Assembly: GCA_016786765.1 (NCBI GenBank)
Contig: JAEUUZ010000059.1
Span: 1 to 64,000, forward strand
Source of the DNA: Chitinophagales bacterium
Lineage (GTDB): Bacteria; Bacteroidota; Bacteroidia; Chitinophagales; LD1
Reading direction: 5' to 3'
Length of the DNA stretch: 64,000 bases
Under the pieces are notes generated by a model that had not been told where the DNA came from, made no database searches, and worked only from the letters and a program-made list of their open reading frames with translations. The position numbers and the translations under genes are program-made. Shown in pieces: positions 36,781-53,843 of this stretch. Within the stretch, counting starts at the first letter, position 1; each line of letters starts with the position of its first letter.

Positions 36781-36942
36781 TTATGGATATTTCTCTTCGA
36801 AGACTCGTTTGAAAAGACGGAAAATATTTTTTACGAACACCTGTGGTGTTTGAGCAAGTAATGCAAATTCATTTTTATCATCTGCAATGATGTATAATTG
36901 ATAGAAAGGAGCTGCTCGAATTGTCTTATTAGCTTGTATCAT
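36781..36942 (-). CDS. 53-residue protein, translationally coupled to the DUF4249 gene
   Basis: The ATG at 36942 overlaps the DUF4249 stop codon in an ATGA arrangement, a common mark of real coupled genes. The product runs MIQANKTIRAAPFYQLY..., then an acidic turn (ADDKNEF), a short helix and a basic, aromatic C-terminus (NIFRLFKRVFEEKYP). There is no signal peptide, so it would be cytosolic. Composition is protein-like rather than random. I do not recognise a family. It would be the last gene of the receptor operon. Confidence 0.55.
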   Translation of the reverse strand: MIQANKTIRAAPFYQLYIIADDKNEFALLAQTPQVFVKNIFRLFKRVFEEKYP

Positions 36943-37760
36943 TGCACAATTAGTGTTTTGCTAACCTCACTTTGTGCACTAAAGCATCCTAGTGTTTCAG
37001 GGGTAATATTTGTTGGGGGATTAGCAGGTGCCACTGATCCGGCTATAGGGCTTCCAAATGAGTTTTGATTTAGTAAATTGTAGTATTCATAGACTTCTTG
37101 TGAAATAGAAATGAGTTGAATTGTTATTATATCTCCTTTTTGAAAACGAACCTGTCGCAAATTCTGTTCAAACAGTTTTCCGTCTTTAAGCCGGTCGTTT
37201 ACAACCACAAAATCTTTTATCAATTCTCCATTAACTGAAGCGCGAATCAAATAGAAGTTCTCAATACCAGACGGGTCATGAAATACACAGGTGACTAGTT
37301 TTCCTTCACCTCCTTGCCCTCCACCAAATCCACCACCGCTACTTTCAGACACCACCAACGTGTCAATTTGAACAATATTAGGCATCCTGCAAAGGGATTC
37401 ATAGAGTCTCCCTTCCACTTTCGCCTGAAATCGATAGGAACGACCAACAATACCCATAAATGAAGAATCTGTTTTGTATAAGCCGGGTTCTACCTCCTTT
37501 AATGTATCAAAAACTCCCGATTCATCGGTAATTACAACCCACTCAGGCGTTATTTTTTGAAACGAACTGCTTTCGTAGTAAGGCTGAGACTTAGAGAATT
37601 TTGCGAAGTATGGACCGGATGAGTTCGTAATATTTACTTCAATAACAAGTTGTGAAGTGACTGATTTTAAGTCAAGTTCAATTTCTTCGGTGCAGGAAGT
37701 GAAAACGATTGATGAAAAGCAAATGAATAGTATCAACCGCAGAGTGAATTTATTTTTCAT
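36939..37760 (-). CDS. DUF4249 lipoprotein
   Basis: 273 residues. Lipobox FTSC (Cys23) followed by TEEIELDL, the family's usual start, then beta-sandwich sequence (SQLVIEVNITN, YRFQAKVEGRLYES). A Gly-rich stretch (residues ~136-145) precedes a second beta-rich half. DUF4249 proteins are encoded next to SusC-like TonB-dependent receptors and are presumed to be surface partners. Here the gene overlaps the receptor's 3' end by 11 bp, a sign of coupled expression. Ligand unknown. Confidence 0.88.
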   Translation of the reverse strand: MKNKFTLRLILFICFSSIVFTSCTEEIELDLKSVTSQLVIEVNITNSSGPYFAKFSKSQPYYESSSFQKITPEWVVITDESGVFDTLKEVEPGLYKTDSSFMGIVGRSYRFQAKVEGRLYESLCRMPNIVQIDTLVVSESSGGGFGGGQGGEGKLVTCVFHDPSGIENFYLIRASVNGELIKDFVVVNDRLKDGKLFEQNLRQVRFQKGDIITIQLISISQEVYEYYNLLNQNSFGSPIAGSVAPANPPTNITPETLGCFSAQSEVSKTLIVQ

Positions 37761-40110
37761 GTGTTGAATTTTTCTTTTTAGGAATTGCTGTAAACTTAAA
37801 GTTGTAAGTTATGCTAGGAACCCATCGGAAGAGATAAGTTTTTTTAGCTACAGTTATATTTTTAGCTGCATCCTTTACCGAAAAATCAATGGAGTAAGCA
37901 TTCTTCTGTCCGTAAACATTATAGCAAGATATATTAAGGTCATGCTCATAGTTTTTTCGTTTTTTCAAAATAAAATTAGCGCTCAGGTCGAGGCGATGAT
38001 AGTTGGGCATTCTATCTTCATTTCGTGGACCGTAATAAGAAATTACCGATCCCCCAATTTCATATTTACCGCTTGGAAATGTTGTAGCATTTCCTGTATA
38101 GTATGTAAACACAGCGCTGATGTTTATTCGAGGAGTAATATCGTACATCAATACAACACTTAAATCATGTGTGCGATCGAACTTGGAATGAAACCACAAG
38201 CCTCCATTTACTTCATTAAACTTCCGCTCACTTGCACTAAGCGTATAGCTAATCCAACCTGTAAACTTACCAGATCTTTTTTTGAAAAAAACTTCTAATC
38301 CGTAAGCGCGCCCCAATCCATATATCAATTCTCTTTCTACCGTTTCGTTTGCTCTAAGCAACGAACCATCTCTGTAATCAATCTGATTTTGCATCCACTT
38401 ATAATATCCTTCTAATGAAACTTCAAACATATCTTTATAAAAATTTACAAAGTATCCGGCACTTACCTGGTCGCTGATTTGTGGTTTTATGTTATTACTG
38501 CTAAGCACCCATCGGTCTGTCGGATTGGAAGTAGTAGTGTTAGTTAGTTGCTGAATAGATTGTGTATTTCTGGAATACGCTAATTTTAAACTCATGTTTT
38601 TATAAAAGTTATAGCTCGAAGAAAAGCGCGGCTCTGGGTTGAAGTATGTTTTGCCGAACTGCCCTGCGTTTAATTGCAACGTATCTGTAGTTCCGTCATC
38701 GTTAAACGAATATTGTTTTGATGGTCCTGTAACACTGAATGTTGAAAGGCGAATGCCGTAGTTGATATTCAGTTTTTCCCAAAGCGTAACTTCATGCTGC
38801 ACATAAACACCGTTTTCCCAGCCGTAATTTTTTGAAAGTTTAAAAGTATTTACGAGCGCGGGATCGGTAGACGTAACTTCACCTGGAACAATAGTATGGA
38901 AAGTAGAAAGCAATCCAAATTTCAGTTTATTGTTACTATTTATATAGTAATCAATATTTTCTTTTAAAGAGAAATCGCGGATGGATGAATTGACATCTAG
39001 TCCAACATTGTTTAAACTTACAGAGTATTTAAAATCGTTGAAGATAAAAGAGGTGTTGGAGAAAATTTTTTGATTTATAACCCAATTCCATCTAGCGGTT
39101 GCTGTGCTGTTGCCATACTTGATTCCAAAATTCCCACCTAGTGAAAAATTATCCTGACCAAAATAGCCACTTATGAATATACGGTTCTTATCGTTGATAC
39201 GGTAATTGGCTTTTGCATTTATGTCAAAGAAATTCAAAGTGCTATTCTTCAAATTTTCCTGATTAGAGAGTTTGAGGAATAAGTCGGCATAAGTAGTTCT
39301 TCCCGATATGAAAAATGAACCTTTGTTTTTTACAATAGGACCTTCTACTGCCAACCGCGAGGTGATAAGCCCTATCCCTCCGCTGATTCCAAAATTGCGA
39401 TTGTTTCCTTCTTTCATTTTAACATCTAAAACGCTTGCAATTCGTCCGCCATATTCCGAAGGCATATTCCCTTTGTACAGTTGCACATCTTTTATGGCAT
39501 CGCTATTGAATGTGCTGAAAAAGCCAAGCATGTGAGCCGCATTGTATACGGGTGCTTCATCGAGCAGAATCAGATTTTGGTCACTGCTACCTCCACGCAC
39601 GTAATAGCCACTATTACCCTCACCTGCAGGCTGAACACCCGGCAACAATTGAATAGATTTGAGGATGTCGCGCTCACCAAATATTACTGGCAGTTTGTTT
39701 ATTTCTTTCATTTCAAGACTCATAACACTCATTTGAGCGCCACGAACATTTTCATCTTTTTTTTGTGCTGTAATTTCAACTTCTTTTAAGTTAGCTTCAG
39801 TACCTTTAAGCGTCACATTCAGTGTTTGATTACGCGTAGAATCAATAACAGAAAGAGATTCAATATAACCTACATAACGTACCAGTATTTTTTTTGCTTG
39901 AGAAGGCACAGACAGAGAGTAAAACCCATAATCGTTAGAGACCGTTCCGATAGTTGCCTGCCCTTCTACAGATATTGTTGCACCAATTAGTGCCTCGCCC
40001 GTTTGTGCATCACGAATGGTTCCGTTAATAGTAAAACCAGGTTGTTTCGTTTGCGCAGTGCAAATTTCGGAACATAGAACAAACAACAAGACAATTTTGT
40101 ATCTGCGCAT
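37750..40110 (-). CDS. TonB-dependent outer-membrane receptor with carboxypeptidase-like N-domain
   Basis: 786 residues from ATG 40110 (the longer frame from a GTG runs into the gene upstream). Signal peptide ends near CTAQ. Residues ~30-110 form a CarboxypepD_reg-like domain (TINGTIRDAQTGEALIGATI), then a plug domain (GYYVRGGSSDQNLILLDEAP; YGGRIASVLDVKM) and a ~22-strand barrel. It imports an unidentified large substrate using TonB energy. The partner DUF4249 and a small lipoprotein upstream suggest a multi-part uptake complex. Substrate cannot be read from sequence. Confidence 0.92.
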   Translation of the reverse strand: MRRYKIVLLFVLCSEICTAQTKQPGFTINGTIRDAQTGEALIGATISVEGQATIGTVSNDYGFYSLSVPSQAKKILVRYVGYIESLSVIDSTRNQTLNVTLKGTEANLKEVEITAQKKDENVRGAQMSVMSLEMKEINKLPVIFGERDILKSIQLLPGVQPAGEGNSGYYVRGGSSDQNLILLDEAPVYNAAHMLGFFSTFNSDAIKDVQLYKGNMPSEYGGRIASVLDVKMKEGNNRNFGISGGIGLITSRLAVEGPIVKNKGSFFISGRTTYADLFLKLSNQENLKNSTLNFFDINAKANYRINDKNRIFISGYFGQDNFSLGGNFGIKYGNSTATARWNWVINQKIFSNTSFIFNDFKYSVSLNNVGLDVNSSIRDFSLKENIDYYINSNNKLKFGLLSTFHTIVPGEVTSTDPALVNTFKLSKNYGWENGVYVQHEVTLWEKLNINYGIRLSTFSVTGPSKQYSFNDDGTTDTLQLNAGQFGKTYFNPEPRFSSSYNFYKNMSLKLAYSRNTQSIQQLTNTTTSNPTDRWVLSSNNIKPQISDQVSAGYFVNFYKDMFEVSLEGYYKWMQNQIDYRDGSLLRANETVERELIYGLGRAYGLEVFFKKRSGKFTGWISYTLSASERKFNEVNGGLWFHSKFDRTHDLSVVLMYDITPRINISAVFTYYTGNATTFPSGKYEIGGSVISYYGPRNEDRMPNYHRLDLSANFILKKRKNYEHDLNISCYNVYGQKNAYSIDFSVKDAAKNITVAKKTYLFRWVPSITYNFKFTAIPKKKNSTHEK

Positions 40111-40117
40111 AAATCTG

Positions 40118-40510
40118 TTATTGAACAATGATTGTGGTTCGAGCATTTTTATTCTGACATCTATTGCCTGAACAATCACCGCCTTTACAGAATGTGCCTT
40201 CTGCTTCTATAAGCGAAATGCCTGTGGTATCATAAGTAATGGTAATGAACTTATCTTTATCGCCACCACCACTTACAACTTTGTAAGAAGGCCCGGAAAT
40301 ACTTCTCCATTCCACGCATGGGTTGTTGTCGCTTGTAAGTTGTATTTTTACCTCCTTATGACTAATTACGGTGTCTTCGGTTGGAGTAAGCACAATATCA
40401 CCTACATTTTTTTTGCACGAAGAAATGGAAAGTAAAATAGCTGAAACAAAAAATGTAGTAACGAACACAATGTCACGTAGAGCTAATTTGTTTTCAATTT
40501 TGTTTTTCAT
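40118..40510 (-). CDS. Small Cys-containing lipoprotein, function unknown
   Basis: 130 residues. A hydrophobic leader (residues ~13-30) ends in a lipobox (LSISSC, Cys32). The mature part is beta-rich with an NPCVEW motif and a C-terminal FCKGGDC...NRC cluster, so disulfides are likely. It resembles a single Ig-like sandwich (TPTEDTVISHKEV). It is the first gene of the receptor operon, 7 bp from the receptor start, and carries the regulatory repeat upstream. No family recognised. Confidence 0.75.
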   Translation of the reverse strand: MKNKIENKLALRDIVFVTTFFVSAILLSISSCKKNVGDIVLTPTEDTVISHKEVKIQLTSDNNPCVEWRSISGPSYKVVSGGGDKDKFITITYDTTGISLIEAEGTFCKGGDCSGNRCQNKNARTTIIVQ

Positions 40511-40582: not shown

Positions 40583-40612
40583 AATAGGAGTATAGTCTAA
40601 ATGTAAAGGAGT
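40583..40612. promoter_or_regulatory. LytTR-type direct repeat upstream of the receptor operon
   Basis: AATAGGAGT-N12-TAAAGGAGT: two 9-bp direct repeats, 12-bp spacer, 21-bp period. This is the geometry known for LytTR regulators such as AgrA. It lies 73 bp before the first gene of the lipoprotein-receptor-DUF4249 operon. A second copy with the same spacing precedes the adjacent kinase gene. Confidence 0.65.
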
Positions 40613-40643
40613 TTGCACTTAGGAATTATGAGCTTAAGGGGAT

Positions 40644-41336
40644 TTAGGATTTGTATCTGTTGAAAAATTCCTCTTCGTAATTTATGCCAATAGGAATTTG
40701 AACTCCTTCAATAGAAATGATTTTACCACGAACCGATTCTATTCGATTTAATGGAACTATATAAGAGCGGTGTACACGAATAAAGTCGTGGGCCGGTAGC
40801 TTCATCATTACTTTTTTCATGCTTATAATGGATAAGATCGGTTTTTTGGAAAGTTGATGGATTTTGATGTAATCATCCATCGTTTCTATGTACAGAATGT
40901 CTGCAAACGGAATTTTTACCAACGAATATTCTGAACGAACAAATAAATGTTTTACTTCATATATGTTAGATTGTTTTAGATACATGTGATATTCCTTTGC
41001 CTTTTCACATGCTTGAAGAAAGCGTATAAAATCAAAAGGCTTCAATAAAAAATCAATTGCACTTACATTAAACCCTTCAATGGCGTACTCACTGAATGCT
41101 GTTGTGAAGATAACCATAGTGTTCTTTGAAATACCTTTGTAAAAATCAATGCCAAGTATATCTGGCATTTGAATGTCTAAAAATAAAAGGTCAACTGAAG
41201 CTTTATTAAGATGCTTTTCAGCTTCAGAAGTACGACTGAAAGTGTTTTGTAAGTCTAAGTATGGAACACGAGAGCAAAAATCCTCTATGATTTGCAATGC
41301 CAATGGTTCGTCATCTATAGCAATACATTGAATCAT
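40644..41336 (-). CDS. LytTR response regulator
   Basis: 230 residues. Receiver domain (residues ~1-115) with acidic pocket IAIDDE, phosphoacceptor Asp54 (LLFLDIQMPD), Thr in FTTAF and Lys in FLLKPF. The C-terminal half is a LytTR DNA-binding domain (FVRSEYSLVKIPFADILYIE; FIRVHRSYIVPLNRI). LytTR domains bind pairs of ~9-bp direct repeats. The kinase gene overlaps its start by 4 bp (41333-41336). The predicted targets are the two matching direct repeats at 40583 and 42389. Confidence 0.95.
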   Translation of the reverse strand: MIQCIAIDDEPLALQIIEDFCSRVPYLDLQNTFSRTSEAEKHLNKASVDLLFLDIQMPDILGIDFYKGISKNTMVIFTTAFSEYAIEGFNVSAIDFLLKPFDFIRFLQACEKAKEYHMYLKQSNIYEVKHLFVRSEYSLVKIPFADILYIETMDDYIKIHQLSKKPILSIISMKKVMMKLPAHDFIRVHRSYIVPLNRIESVRGKIISIEGVQIPIGINYEEEFFNRYKS

Positions 41337-42337
41337 TGTAAACAGAGTTTTAAAAAGACCGTGTAATGGTTGTCTAGGTCAGTAATGGTTAACTCGTGTT
41401 TGAAAGGATATAAATGTTCTAGGCGTTGCTTTGTATTGGCTATACCAAGACCGTAGTTTACGATCTGAGTAGAATGTAGTTTTGTTTTTTTATTCAATAC
41501 TTCAAGAGTTAGGGTGTTTAACTTGTCGCTGATGATTATGCTAATGTAACAAGGCTCTTCGGTACTTACTCCATGCTTAAAGGCATTCTCAATAAATGGA
41601 ATAAAAATTAGTGGGGCAATCTGATTTTGTAAGTTTTCTATATTAAAATGATAGTTTACGGTTACATTCGGAGTGAGTCTCAGCTTCTGCAAGTCAATAT
41701 AATTACTGATGTAGGTTATTTCTTTGTCAAGCATAACGAAATCACTACTGGTTTCTGTAAACACATGTCGCATGATGTTAGCTAACTTGAGTAACGCTCC
41801 AGGTGTGTTATCAGACTTCTGAAGTGCCATAGAATAAATACCGTTGATAGTATTGAACAAAAAGTGAGGATTGATTTGAGCTTTGAGAAATGCCAGCTCT
41901 GCTTTAAGTTTATGCTCTTCTGCGAGTTGCCAAAAGGAATATATCCGTAAGCCAAAAGAGATGAATAATATGGTGACAAAACGAAATATAATACTGCTAT
42001 ACACCATAGGAAAATTTAGCTTAATCTTGTATACTTCAGCATAAAGTATACTGGCGCTGATTACCACAGGTGCAAGTATTAACATAAGGCCAAGTATTAA
42101 AAAGGAAAAGTAAATCAAATGTTTACTTTTAACATAAAAGCGCGGTATCAGGTAATAGTAATTGACGTAGAAAAATAGAACGATGCAGATATTGGGGATA
42201 AAAATGCCAAAAAGCATTAAGAAGTTTTTCACCTCATCTTCTTTTAGTTTAATGTTTTGCAAAACAAAATGGGGCAGAAGAAAAAAAATCAGCCAAAAAC
42301 ATATTTGAAGAGAAATACTTATTATTTTCTTTGTCAT
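41333..42337 (-). CDS. LytS/YehU-type sensor histidine kinase
   Basis: 334 residues. Four N-terminal membrane helices (residues ~5-26, 37-63, 73-100, 110-135), then the His_kinase domain with KAQINPHFLFNTINGIYS (phosphoacceptor His158) and an ATPase with FIPFIENAFKHGV and a GLGIANTKQRLE G-box. No extracellular sensor domain, so the membrane part probably senses. It is the cognate kinase of the overlapping LytTR regulator. Expression is likely autoregulated through the repeat 52 bp upstream. Confidence 0.94.
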   Translation of the reverse strand: MTKKIISISLQICFWLIFFLLPHFVLQNIKLKEDEVKNFLMLFGIFIPNICIVLFFYVNYYYLIPRFYVKSKHLIYFSFLILGLMLILAPVVISASILYAEVYKIKLNFPMVYSSIIFRFVTILFISFGLRIYSFWQLAEEHKLKAELAFLKAQINPHFLFNTINGIYSMALQKSDNTPGALLKLANIMRHVFTETSSDFVMLDKEITYISNYIDLQKLRLTPNVTVNYHFNIENLQNQIAPLIFIPFIENAFKHGVSTEEPCYISIIISDKLNTLTLEVLNKKTKLHSTQIVNYGLGIANTKQRLEHLYPFKHELTITDLDNHYTVFLKLCLQ

Positions 42338-42388
42338 AAATGTTAAGGTAACAAGTGTTTAAATCAATTCAATGCAAATGAAATAAAT

Positions 42389-42418
42389 TAAAGGCGTATG
42401 TGCCGAATGTAAAGGAGT
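42389..42418. promoter_or_regulatory. LytTR-type direct repeat upstream of the histidine kinase gene
   Basis: TAAAGGCGT-N12-TAAAGGAGT, two 9-bp direct repeats with 12-bp spacer, 52 bp before the kinase start codon. The downstream half-site and spacing are identical to the site at 40583-40612, and flanking AAATTAAAG-like sequence is also shared. It should allow autoregulation of the two-component pair. Confidence 0.65.
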
Positions 42419-42642: not shown

Positions 42643-44154
42643 TTACCCCCTCGGCATCTCAATTCTGAATGTAGTGCCTTTATTCACTTCTGAAGATTTC
42701 ACGTAAATTTTTCCATGGTGATACTCTTCCACAATACGTTTAGTGAGCGATAAGCCCAAGCCCCAACCTCTGCGTTTGGTGCTGAATCCGGGTTCAAAAA
42801 TAGTATTGAATTTCCCCTTCGGAATACCACAACCGCTGTCTTTCACATCTACATACACCATGCTCGTTGAAGCACTAATATCAATGCTTAACTTGCCTGC
42901 ACCATTCATAGCATCTAATGCATTCTTCAATAAATTTTCCAAAACCCAATTGAATAGTTGTTTGTTGATATTGAACAACAAATCTTTTTCTTCAATGTGG
43001 ATGCTGAATTCAACATCTTTTGATGAACGTGCTTTGATGTACGTCACGTTCTCTTCAATCGTATCGAACACGGGTGTAGGTTCTAATTGCGGATGGGCAC
43101 CAATTTTCGAAAAACGATCTGCCACTAAAGTCAACCGCTCTACATCATGATCAATTTCCCCAATCACTTCTTCACCTACTTCTTGCAATTTATGCTCGCG
43201 TAAATAATCAACCCAAGCCGCCAACGATGAAATAGGTGTTCCCAGTTGATGTGCCGTTTCTTTTGCTAAACCCACCCACACTTGGTTTTGTTCGGCTCTA
43301 CGGGCATTGCTCATAGCTAGATAGGCAATGATAAGGAATGTTGCAAAAATGAGTAACTGAACAAATGGGAATAGCTTCAATTGTTTTAATGTGGCGGAAT
43401 CGTCAAAATAAATTTTCTGCATCTGATGCTCGCCAAGGTCTATGCTTATTGGCTCGTGGGCAGCTTTCATGCGTTGAATTGTGTGTTGAATTTTAGCAGC
43501 TGTGTTTACTTCCGAAGAATCTATATTACCAAAGGCAATTAGTTTTTCTTGTTCGTCTAACAGTAAAACAGGTGCAGAGGCAGTATTCACTACTACTTCG
43601 TTGATAAACGAGCTAATAATCTCATTAAGTGTGTTTTTTAACTCTGTAAAAAGATTTGAATCTTTATAGTAAATGAAACTGTTTTTTCCCATATAGGAAA
43701 TGGCAATAGGCGGATATTGTCGAAAAGAAACGAAGGCGGAATCAGAAATGTTTAAACGTTCTTTGGGAAGTTGCACCTCAAAGTTCCGAAAGTCAATCAC
43801 TTTGCCGTATTCATTGGACAGCACAACCGGAATATCGTTATTGCCGGTAATAATTTCGCTAAAGAAATTTAATTCTTCATTGTTTTCAACAGTAATAATG
43901 AACTTGGTTGATTGTGCCCAAATATTTACTTTTTTTCGCTCGTCAGCAGCAAGACGTGCAAAAAGATCGTTCGTGTATTTCACCAATTTTGCCCTTTTTG
44001 CAATAGCTTCTGCCCATAATTTAGCTTTCCGTTTTTCTTCGTCAGCTATTTTGTTGGTGATGTAATTAGTGTATAAGCTAGTGGCAATAGCAATCACTAT
44101 CGCCAACAATAGCAAGAAAACTTTATAATTCGATTTTCGGGCGTAAATGTCCAT
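42643..44154 (-). CDS. Orphan membrane sensor histidine kinase
   Basis: 503 residues. Two transmembrane segments (~14-30 and ~262-284) enclose a ~230-residue periplasmic sensor. No clear HAMP. The cytosolic part has HisKA ETAHQLGTPISSL (His302) and HATPase_c boxes LLKNALDAM (N), DSGCGIP (G1), FEPGFSTKRRGWGLGLSL (F/G2). No response regulator gene is adjacent, so it is an orphan. The stimulus is unknown. Confidence 0.92.
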   Translation of the reverse strand: MDIYARKSNYKVFLLLLAIVIAIATSLYTNYITNKIADEEKRKAKLWAEAIAKRAKLVKYTNDLFARLAADERKKVNIWAQSTKFIITVENNEELNFFSEIITGNNDIPVVLSNEYGKVIDFRNFEVQLPKERLNISDSAFVSFRQYPPIAISYMGKNSFIYYKDSNLFTELKNTLNEIISSFINEVVVNTASAPVLLLDEQEKLIAFGNIDSSEVNTAAKIQHTIQRMKAAHEPISIDLGEHQMQKIYFDDSATLKQLKLFPFVQLLIFATFLIIAYLAMSNARRAEQNQVWVGLAKETAHQLGTPISSLAAWVDYLREHKLQEVGEEVIGEIDHDVERLTLVADRFSKIGAHPQLEPTPVFDTIEENVTYIKARSSKDVEFSIHIEEKDLLFNINKQLFNWVLENLLKNALDAMNGAGKLSIDISASTSMVYVDVKDSGCGIPKGKFNTIFEPGFSTKRRGWGLGLSLTKRIVEEYHHGKIYVKSSEVNKGTTFRIEMPRG

Positions 44155-49913: not shown

Positions 49914-52900
49914 TTACTTCATTAACGCAAACGAACCTGTTTTACTTTCATCTCCCTTCCCGGGTACATTGTATTTTACAAAGTAGACATAGATTTCAGT
50001 AGGTTGAAGCTCGGTTTTGAAATTACCATCCCAACCGGTGAGTGGGTTGTTATACAACAATTCTCCCCAGCGATTAAACACTCTGAATTCTTTAATAGTT
50101 ACTCCACTTCCGGCTCTAACAATCGGGAAAAATAAATCGTTTTGGCGATCTCCGTTTGGCGAGAAAGCAGTAGGAATAGCAATATCAACACCTGCTATCG
50201 AAATAACATTTACGGAATCCGTTGCCGCACAACCTGTGTAATTATCTGTTGCAGTAACATAGTAGGTGCCCGGTGCATTAATGATAGTGCTTACCGTTTT
50301 ATCGCCTGTGCTCCAAACATAATTAACTACGCCATTTGCAGTGGCAGTAAGCGTTACCGATGCTGCATTCAAAACGGTGTCGTTGCCGGCATCAACAAAT
50401 GGTGTTGAAGTGTTCGATACTACAATAACAGTGAATGCGGTGAAACATCCATTGACAGGGTCGTTTACTTTCAAAATATAAGTGCCGGCAGTAGTTACGG
50501 TTGTTGAATTATTCGTTGCTCCATTGCTCCAATTATAAGTCGCATTTGGTGTTGTAGAAGTAGCCGATAAAGTTACGGATGTTCTTAAACAGGTTAATGT
50601 ATCCACTGTGTTTCCGCTTACGTTAGGCGGAGTGGTGTTTTGGTTAACCGGTGTGGAAACAGATGCGGTGCAACCATTTGCAGGGTCAGTAGCCGATACT
50701 GTGTATGTTCCTGCAGTGCTCACAGTGGTGTTGTTTCCATTGGTTCCATCGCTCCAAACAAATGTAGTTCCTAATGTAGTTGATGCTGCAACCAACGTTA
50801 CATTCGCAAAATTGCAATTGATATCGGTATGATTGCCGATACTTACATTTGGCGCTGTTGTATTCTGAGAAACGGTTATAGTTGCAGAAGCAGAACATCC
50901 CCCCGGTTCAGTGGCAGTAACGGTGTATGTTCCTGCAGCTGTAATTGTATTGGTAATACTTATTCCTCCATTACTCCATGCATAAGTAACTCCTGCCGTT
51001 GTTGAATTGGCAACGAGAGTAACAGTTGTTGTTGTACAAGTCAAAACACTTGGAGTAGCAATACTCACATTAGGTGGTGTAGCTGTTTGTATTACAGTGG
51101 CTGATGTAGATGCAGTGCATCCGTTTGATGGGTCGGTAGCCGTAACACTATATGTTCCGGCAGATGTCACAGCTAATGTGTTTAAGGTACTTCCATCACT
51201 CCAAACTAAGTCAGTTACAATGGGTGTTGACGAAGCGGTGAGCGTTACACTCGGTGTAGTACAATTGAGCGCAGCTGGTGGGGCAATAGCCACTTTAGGA
51301 GGAATACTATTTTGTGTAACAGTAGTTGCTGCACTTGCCGTACAGCCATTGGTAGGATCTGTTGCCGTTACGGTATATGTACCCGGAGCATTAATGCTAT
51401 TCGTGCTTCCTGTTCCTCCGCCACTCCATGCAAAAGTTGCGCCTACAGTTGATGAATTTGCCGATAGGAGAGCACTTGTTATTCTGCAATTTAGCGATGT
51501 AGTTGCAGGTATACTTACATTGGGTATAGCTGTATTCTGTGTCACTGTTGTTGATGTAGACGCTGTACATCCACCCGGCTCTGTTACAGTAACAGTGTAG
51601 GTTCCGGGAGTGTTCACCGATTTTGTTCCACCTGTTCCACCACCACTCCATGCGAAAGTTGCGCCTGCCGTTGTTGAGCTTGCACTTAGCGTTTGGCTTG
51701 TTGTAGTACATGTCAATGCAACAGGCGAAGCAATACTTACATTAGGCGGGGTAGCTGTTTGTGTTACGGTTGTTGACGTTGAAGCTGTACAACCATTCGC
51801 AGGGTCAGTTGCAGTTACTGTATATGTACCGGCTGTACTTACCGATTTAGTACTTCCTGTTCCACCGCCACTCCACGCAAACGTTGCACCGGCTGTGGTG
51901 GAAGATGCGGTTAATGTTGCACTCGTTACGGTACAATTCAGTACAGCAGGAGGCGAAATACTCACATTAGGTGTTGTTGTATTTTGTGTAACTGTTGTTG
52001 AAGAAGATGCTGTACAACCATTCGCAGGGTCTGTGGCTGAAACCGTGTACGTGCCGGCTGTTGAAATACTTTTCGTGCTTCCCGGTCCACCACCACTCCA
52101 CGCAAAAGTTGCGCCTGCAGTTGTTGACGAAGCCGATAAAGTTACTGAGCTATTGATGCAATTCAATTGTGCAGGTGTAGCTATACTTACGTTAGGAGCA
52201 GTTGTATTTTGTGTCACCGTTCTTGATGCAGATGCCGTACATCCATTCGCAGGATCTGTTGCGGTTACAGTATATGTCCCTGCTGTTGAAATACCGGTGG
52301 TACTGCCTGTTCCTCCGTTACTCCAAAGATAAGTAACACCTGCTGTTGTTGAAGATGCTGTTAACGTTTGACTTGTTGTAACACAGGTAAGTGCTACAGG
52401 CACAGCTATACTTACATTTGGGGGTGTAGTATTTTGTGTTACCGTTCTTGAAGCTGAAGCCGTACAACCATTCGCAAGGTCTGTTGCTGTTACGGTATAA
52501 GTACCCGCAGTAGTCACTGTTTTCGTGCTTCCCGTTCCACCGCCACTCCATGCAAACGTTGCTCCTGCAGTAGTGGAAGCAGCTGTTAGTGTTTGACTGG
52601 TTGTAGAACATGTTAATGGAATCGGAGCGGCTAAACTTACATTGGGTGTAGAAGTATTTTGTGCAACTGTTGTAGATGCCGAAGCCGTACATCCGCCTGC
52701 AGTAACGGTTACGGTATATGTCCCTACAGCGGTTACTGCTTTTGTGGCTCCCGTTCCACCGCCACTCCATGCATAGGTGGCCCCAGATGTGGTTGACGAT
52801 GCGGTTAAGGTAACCGATGTGTTAGCGCAAGTAAGCGTAGCAGGTGGGGCAATACTAATATCAGGTGTACTTCCGCTCGGAGTTAAAACATAGGTTGCCG

Positions 52901-53843
52901 ATGCACTACATCCACCCGGATTAACAGTAAGCGTATACGTTCCGGCTCCGGTAACAGAAGTACTTGAAGCTGATGGAGATACTATGGTTGAGCCTACCGG
53001 ACCTGTCCATGAATAGGTAGGTGAGGTGGCATTGGTAACAGCAGTTAATGTAGTTGTTGATGATCCGCAAGGCAAAGCGGCTGCAGTAATAGATGCTGTT
53101 GGAGGTGCGGTTGCCACAATACTGGTGATGATGATAAACTGAGACCAAGGATTCGAACTATAGGTTGATCCACCGTTTCTATATCTAATAGTGATGGTCT
53201 TCACCGTTGAACCTGAAATAGAAATGTTATGCGACCCACAATCACAGCCTTGTGCAACACCGGTAATGGTTTTCGTGTTGCCCGCTGTTGTTATGGAATT
53301 ACTTCCGCAAGAGGTGATAGCAATATTGGCTGCAGGTACTGCAGCGTTTGAAGCATCGGTAGCCGAGATATCTACTACATCGGTAAAGTAATGTGAACCA
53401 TCACCACTCCAAATGGCCTGATTAATATCCCAAATTCTAAACGTAACCGGGGCACAAACCGGATTCGCAAAGGTTAATACCACTTGTTCGTAGCGCGATG
53501 TATTATTATCGGGGTAGTTGGCACTGAGTACCAAACCGCTTTGCGCACTGCTATTAGAGCAATAGCATGAACCTGACGAATAGTCGGCAATATTCATGCT
53601 TACTTCGTTGTAATAAAACGGAACTGCCGGAAGGGTAGTGTTGTTTCCGAAGCAAGTTGTATTCGCTAAAGTATTGGCTCTACTGTTGGCAAATTCAGTG
53701 TACGCTGCAGTCATTGTATTTCCGCCTTGCGTAGTAGAATACGAAGTGCTGCCGGAAGTCCAACTGGTAAATGGAAAAGTCTGAGCAAAAGTTTCAGAAC
53801 ATCCTACTAAGCATAGCAGTATCGAAAGGTAAAATTTAGACAT
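49914..53843 (-). CDS. T9SS type B cargo: long adhesin-like protein with 13 Ig-like repeats
   Basis: 1309 residues. Signal peptide (CSETFAQ). An N-terminal ~230-residue domain has several Cys and no recognised family. From ~240 to ~1200 are 13 repeats of about 79 residues; each has LTC...SVTLTA, a W-S-G/N-G, GTYTVTATDPANGCTAS and VTQNT. The C-terminal ~90 residues are a CHU_C/gliding-associated domain (IPTAFSPNGD; FRVFNRWGELLYN; GWDGNF). The repeats should form a stiff Ig-like rod, an adhesin or matrix protein. The adjacent 53933 gene is similar and on the same strand. Confidence 0.9.
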   Translation of the reverse strand: MSKFYLSILLCLVGCSETFAQTFPFTSWTSGSTSYSTTQGGNTMTAAYTEFANSRANTLANTTCFGNNTTLPAVPFYYNEVSMNIADYSSGSCYCSNSSAQSGLVLSANYPDNNTSRYEQVVLTFANPVCAPVTFRIWDINQAIWSGDGSHYFTDVVDISATDASNAAVPAANIAITSCGSNSITTAGNTKTITGVAQGCDCGSHNISISGSTVKTITIRYRNGGSTYSSNPWSQFIIITSIVATAPPTASITAAALPCGSSTTTLTAVTNATSPTYSWTGPVGSTIVSPSASSTSVTGAGTYTLTVNPGGCSASATYVLTPSGSTPDISIAPPATLTCANTSVTLTASSTTSGATYAWSGGGTGATKAVTAVGTYTVTVTAGGCTASASTTVAQNTSTPNVSLAAPIPLTCSTTSQTLTAASTTAGATFAWSGGGTGSTKTVTTAGTYTVTATDLANGCTASASRTVTQNTTPPNVSIAVPVALTCVTTSQTLTASSTTAGVTYLWSNGGTGSTTGISTAGTYTVTATDPANGCTASASRTVTQNTTAPNVSIATPAQLNCINSSVTLSASSTTAGATFAWSGGGPGSTKSISTAGTYTVSATDPANGCTASSSTTVTQNTTTPNVSISPPAVLNCTVTSATLTASSTTAGATFAWSGGGTGSTKSVSTAGTYTVTATDPANGCTASTSTTVTQTATPPNVSIASPVALTCTTTSQTLSASSTTAGATFAWSGGGTGGTKSVNTPGTYTVTVTEPGGCTASTSTTVTQNTAIPNVSIPATTSLNCRITSALLSANSSTVGATFAWSGGGTGSTNSINAPGTYTVTATDPTNGCTASAATTVTQNSIPPKVAIAPPAALNCTTPSVTLTASSTPIVTDLVWSDGSTLNTLAVTSAGTYSVTATDPSNGCTASTSATVIQTATPPNVSIATPSVLTCTTTTVTLVANSTTAGVTYAWSNGGISITNTITAAGTYTVTATEPGGCSASATITVSQNTTAPNVSIGNHTDINCNFANVTLVAASTTLGTTFVWSDGTNGNNTTVSTAGTYTVSATDPANGCTASVSTPVNQNTTPPNVSGNTVDTLTCLRTSVTLSATSTTPNATYNWSNGATNNSTTVTTAGTYILKVNDPVNGCFTAFTVIVVSNTSTPFVDAGNDTVLNAASVTLTATANGVVNYVWSTGDKTVSTIINAPGTYYVTATDNYTGCAATDSVNVISIAGVDIAIPTAFSPNGDRQNDLFFPIVRAGSGVTIKEFRVFNRWGELLYNNPLTGWDGNFKTELQPTEIYVYFVKYNVPGKGDESKTGSFALMK

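Follow-up and report, generated by a model that had tools for sequence, protein, structure and literature searches.

The stretch of DNA analysed here, 64,000 nucleotides of contig JAEUUZ010000059.1 from a Chitinophagales bacterium (hereafter the window), carries a histidine kinase gene and a LytTR response regulator gene directly before a TonB-dependent receptor operon, raising the question of whether the regulator controls its neighbour as well as itself, and through which site. All six genes of the locus lie on the minus strand, in the order kinase, regulator, lipoprotein, TonB receptor, DUF4249 protein and 53-aa ORF. The kinase gene (41333..42337; PF06580, Pfam E-value 1e-23) overlaps by 4 nt the gene of the regulator (40644..41336), which has a receiver domain (PF00072, 2e-17) and a LytTR DNA-binding domain (PF04397, 3.5e-15), and the Pfam domains of the two proteins fit a kinase/REC-LytTR pair. 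After a gap of 133 bp comes the first gene of the target operon, encoding a putative lipoprotein of 130 aa (40118..40510), followed by the TonB-dependent receptor (37750..40110), in which Pfam finds an N-terminal carboxypeptidase-regulatory-like domain and a plug, by its partner, a lipoprotein that Pfam assigns to DUF4249 (36939..37760), and by the 53-aa ORF (36781..36942), which shares a 4-nt ATGA overlap with the DUF4249 stop. The tight spacing of these four genes supports their being one operon. On the same strand, a HATPase_c histidine-kinase-like gene (42643-44154) stops a short way before the kinase promoter, so that its transcription might continue into the kinase and regulator genes. 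Elsewhere in the window, a 1309-aa protein (49914-53843) contains many similar repeats (motif like NGCTASASTTVTQNTT) and ends in a C-terminus resembling a secretion/gliding-type C-terminal domain.

The first-pass annotation had inferred that the receptor operon would be a ligand-responsive uptake unit with a private sensor, a reading that the proteins do not support. The kinase consists of four hydrophobic helices and the kinase core, with no extracellular domain and no sensor domain recognised by Pfam. We found no evidence that the kinase senses the ligand of the receptor, and most genomes of the order have the receptor-DUF4249 pair but not this regulator beside it. Receptor relatives are present in 387 of 398 genomes of the order, and the window genome itself has a second receptor-DUF4249 pair (G000:C59:169951-172299; receptor 58% identical) with no linked regulator. 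The adjacent receptor and DUF4249 genes in the window constitute a TonB receptor/DUF4249 transport pair. The predicted DUF4249 model (pLDDT 85) is mostly beta-strand and matched only generic two-domain beta-sandwich proteins with a low TM-score, and assigning a function from the fold was therefore dropped. The 130-aa lipoprotein had no Pfam or NCBIfam match and no clear homologue among 395 class genomes; its orthologues were abandoned as a guide, since there was no match in the family and those in the class were weak (E 0.0005-0.007). No family match was found for the 53-aa ORF, and a search of Rfam gave no match.

Two LytTR-type paired sites lie in the locus, and they are best read on the minus strand, as all six genes lie there. 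The kinase promoter site (ACTCCTTTA-N12-ACGCCTTTA) reads ACTCCTTTA cattcggcacat ACGCCTTTA from 42418 to 42389, 51 bases before the kinase start (42337), and the site of the lipoprotein/receptor operon promoter (ACTCCTTTA-N12-ACTCCTATT) reads ACTCCTTTA catttagactat ACTCCTATT from 40612 to 40583, 72 bases before the lipoprotein start (40510). The 9-12-9 repeats claimed by the first-pass annotation were thus found at exactly the coordinates that it gave, with a period of 21 bp in both, and each is, as it had said, upstream of the first gene of a transcription unit. Outside the 9-mers the two sites have in common CATT after the first half and AT before the second, and their distances to the start codon differ between the two promoters. 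A sigma-70 promoter scan was set aside as not meaningful for Bacteroidota. The -7 element TAnnTTTG is visible in the kinase promoters of Chitinophaga (TACCTTTG); the window has only a degenerate TACCTTAA, and its promoter positions were therefore not assigned.

We considered whether these repeats could have arisen by chance, or be left over from a local duplication, without any role in regulation. In dinucleotide shuffles of the window, the degenerate pattern found no match and the 3-mismatch consensus a mean of 0.11, as compared with 2 observed. When the whole genome (G000; 3,624,525 bases) was scanned with mismatch-limited patterns, the two window sites were the only matches to the consensus at up to 2 mismatches. 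With the kinase site alone as query, 10 matches at up to 3 mismatches were obtained, the lipoprotein site among them, as compared with 6 for the reversed control, showing that sequence similarity alone is not decisive; this near-control frequency is a point in favour of chance. Location is more telling: 13 other near-matches (up to 3 mismatches) were fetched from the genome and all 13 overlap ORFs, the least obvious one lying inside an HU-like gene. The two window sites, in contrast, each stand before the opening gene of one of two neighbouring transcription units, and no other match examined has a promoter position. The first-pass annotation had proposed that a motif at background frequency would tell against its reading; the sites stand apart from the background mainly by location. 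The flanks of the two copies are dissimilar, arguing against a recent duplication. As the sites also recur at corresponding positions in relatives, with the shift fixed at 21 bp, as described below, we regard chance or duplication as a very improbable account of the repeats.

Relatives of the regulator (37-59% identity) were collected from genomes of the family, GTDB species and the order, and the 200 bp before each linked kinase was compared with itself at different shifts, in 107 loci after dereplication. The best 9-mer self-match averaged 6.71 at shift 21, as compared with 5.71-6.12 at all other shifts from 12 to 40, and a 9-mer repeat of at least 8/9 was present at shift 21 in 30 of the 107 loci, as compared with 0-9 at shifts 12-20 and 22-40. 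A first pass over 90 kinase-promoter regions agrees with this result. About 70% of the relatives' kinase promoters had no strong repeat at this strict cut, which would miss weaker ones. The letters of the half-sites vary by lineage, with TTACCGACC/TTACCGAAT in one group and CCCGATAGA/ACCTATAGA in another. The excess at shift 21 shows that a repeat of 21-bp period in the kinase promoter is characteristic of the whole class, with variable letters, and the link between the window and its relatives rests on architecture and position, the exact half-site letters not being conserved. In one group of relatives, a search for second targets with the TTACCGA sites exceeded the reversed control in some genomes; it was dropped, as the matches were too many to interpret.

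The sharing of a site between the kinase promoter and the neighbouring operon was examined in 124 loci, by taking the best pair with one site in the kinase promoter and the other within 360 bp downstream of the regulator gene. A joint score of at least 22.5 was reached at shift 21 by 7 of the 124 loci, including the window locus, as compared with 0-1 at other shifts, and a score of at least 21 by 13 loci, as compared with 0-4. The higher score occurred in 0.1% of mismatched cross-locus pairs (binomial test, nominal p about 5e-11). Because self-repeats raise the score, simple-sequence loci such as L095 also score, and the shift control guards against this bias in bulk, not locus by locus. Besides the window, four loci were convincing: Flavobacterium zepuense (L087), with TTTGCCGCA/TTTACCTCA and TTAACCGCA/TTAACCTCA and a secreted M43 peptidase just downstream; L050, in which a carbohydrate-binding Cthe_2159 protein is the second downstream gene; and L251 and L218, with a DUF3500 protein and a PepSY-like protein, respectively, just downstream.

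The kinase-regulator-receptor-DUF4249 order of the window is kept in three Chitinophaga loci of the same genus group, C. filiformis (L081), L230 and L232. We found that all three have TTCTTCGCA-N12-TTCTTCTCA before the receptor, with identical half-sites, and that their kinase genes are preceded by a related repeat of 21-bp period, which in C. filiformis is TACTTCTAC-N12-TTCTTCTCA. At both promoters these sites have diverged in their letters from those of the window and have kept the same 21-bp architecture, although CATACT(C/T)CT is common to the kinase sites of C. filiformis and the window. The conservation upstream of orthologous genes that the first-pass annotation had called for therefore holds for the architecture and not for the exact letters. 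In the regulator tree, the regulators of Chitinophaga, Symbiothrix, L207 and L228 form one strongly supported clade that does not include that of the window (100/97; two changes), indicating that linkage to the receptor either evolved on two or more occasions or is an ancestral trait that has frequently been lost. L207 and L228 fit the arrangement less closely, the receptor being 6 kb distant or sharing only 30% identity, and no shared site was recognised in them. In the Candidatus Symbiothrix locus (L092 4890-8345; contig JAISKM010000030.1), the kinase gene is apparently without its membrane part and an unrelated 381-aa ORF (Fic-like by eye) occupies the place of the Chitinophaga TonB receptor, while the kinase-promoter site is retained, and the locus looks as if it were decaying. 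In C. filiformis, a second copy of the receptor-promoter site with a downstream promoter-like stretch lies at about 6210-6330 of L255 (G779:C9:52209-52238); no receptor, kinase or regulator homologues were found in the 14 kb around it, and it is possibly an orphan promoter copy.

Receptor operons lacking a linked regulator served as a negative control. The first set (n=19) showed an unexpected excess at shift 21, which on inspection was largely due to coding sequence and a 21-bp tandem array, and a second set of 19 showed no distinct excess at this shift. In L190, a tandem array of roughly 21-bp units (AAAGTGCGAGTGA...) precedes the receptor operon. Two loci with no linked regulator have LytTR-like pairs upstream of the TonB gene, ACACCTCAA-N12-ACATCTCAA in L189 and CGTTTCAAC/CGCCTCAAC at 21 bp in L191, which suggests that these may be real sites and that an unlinked LytTR regulator may control the receptor operon in some relatives.

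Taken together, the spacing enrichment, the joint-site test and the Chitinophaga loci support what the first-pass annotation had proposed, namely that the paired site is of LytTR type and that the linked regulator controls both itself and the receptor operon. The regulator very probably binds the same paired site before its own genes and before the adjoining operon. In the mechanism that we propose, the REC-LytTR protein would be phosphorylated via the co-transcribed PF06580 kinase, and a pair of regulator molecules would bind cooperatively to two 9-bp half-sites lying 21 bp, or two helical turns, apart. Binding at 42389-42418 would result in autoregulation, and binding at 40583-40612 in control of the lipoprotein/TonB receptor/DUF4249/53-aa operon. 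One possible alternative is that the sites are bound by another LytTR protein encoded in this genome, alone or together with the linked one, and that the linked regulator has only a secondary part in controlling the receptor operon. The genome encodes at least two further LytTR regulators (C34:127513 and C29:8194; 34-35% identity), and LytTR cross-regulation is published for S. mutans (PMC6193735). However, no 21-bp repeat was seen in the stretches scanned before the kinases beside these two paralogues, other loci of the class have, after their own regulator, a site that matches the one in the kinase promoter, and the lipoprotein site of the window sits between the linked regulator and its neighbour operon, so we consider control by another regulator improbable.

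The sign of the regulation is a separate matter. The regulator might repress both promoters, by negative autoregulation, with the operon on when the kinase is inactive; the sign is not readable from sequence, and the distance between the site and the lipoprotein start would allow the site to overlap the core promoter. However, most characterised LytTR sites that lie immediately before a promoter serve activation (PMC6193735; AgrA, PMC4227749), and the two window sites are located 50-100 bp ahead of the start codons and not across them. Positive control was taken as the default on the basis of published LytTR systems (HdrR, PMC6193735), and repression seems unlikely to us, though somewhat less so than binding by another regulator. 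We therefore prefer the hypothesis, which we hold with considerable confidence, that the linked regulator binds both sites and controls itself and the adjacent operon, most likely activating both promoters.

LytTR systems are abundant in Bacteroidota, and the regulation predicted here is of a known, ordinary kind that appears to recur across the phylum. What the locus would add is a general, self-labelled 21-bp pattern in Bacteroidota. It is about an even question whether, class-wide in Bacteroidota, the paired site of the kinase promoter, in a 21-bp version specific to each pair, recurs at the promoter of the controlled genes, often those of the next operon, so that orphan targets would become readable, with receptor/DUF4249 operons having come under such control more than once. 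If this is true, sequence alone would reveal the targets of hundreds of orphan kinase/LytTR systems, by the rule that a repeat at exactly 21 bp with the same letters at the kinase and target promoters predicts the controlled genes, a rule that would extend to receptor operons of unknown cargo. The window locus offers a precise, testable candidate pair of sites.

LytTR sites in general consist of 9-11-bp repeats with 11-13-bp spacers (PMC4847170), and LRS-like repeats have been mentioned for Bacteroides (PMC6193735); in the open full-text literature we found no paper defining the target site of a kinase-linked LytTR regulator in Bacteroidota. The window locus resembles BtsS/BtsR and YpdA/YpdB of E. 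coli in its PF06580-type kinase, its REC-LytTR regulator and the direct repeat at a target promoter. The YpdB site, GGCATTTCAT-N11-GGCATTTCAT, has the same 21-bp period, and YpdB binds its sites A and B in sequence (PMC4847170); the target in E. coli is a transporter gene, to which the receptor operon may be likened. Unlike these systems, the window kinase has four helices and no Pfam-recognised sensor domain, the target is a TonB receptor operon adjoining the regulator, and sites are present at both the kinase and the target promoters. The regulator scores 93.3 bits against NCBIfam NF008677 (BtsR), far below the curated cut-off of 246, and thus does not qualify as a BtsR orthologue. In HdrRM and BrsRM of S. 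mutans, direct repeats of 9 bp, in most cases separated by 12 bp, likewise lie upstream of the regulator's own promoter, and sites of this type are also found at the target genes (PMC6193735). HdrR activates its own promoter by binding, upstream of it, to a pair of 9-bp repeats with a 12-bp spacing; the published sites of this form include ACCTCTTAG-12-ACCACTTAA, and half-sites such as ACCTCTTAG resemble ACTCCTTTA of the window (PMC6193735). However, the HdrRM and BrsRM regulators are not two-component proteins and are held by a membrane inhibitor, and the window pair, in which the regulator has a receiver domain and its partner is a histidine kinase, falls outside the LytTR Regulatory System (LRS) definition of a receiver-less regulator with a membrane inhibitor. 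The closest counterpart of the target operon is BT2172-BT2173 of Bacteroides thetaiotaomicron, the same TonB transporter/DUF4249 gene pair, for which a conserved operon and similar mutant phenotypes are reported (PMC11003636); it is the only such pair with a published genetic test of joint substrate uptake. In contrast to that operon, for which a linked LytTR system is not mentioned (PMC11003636), the window operon begins with a small lipoprotein gene, also includes a 53-aa ORF, and has a kinase and regulator linked to it.
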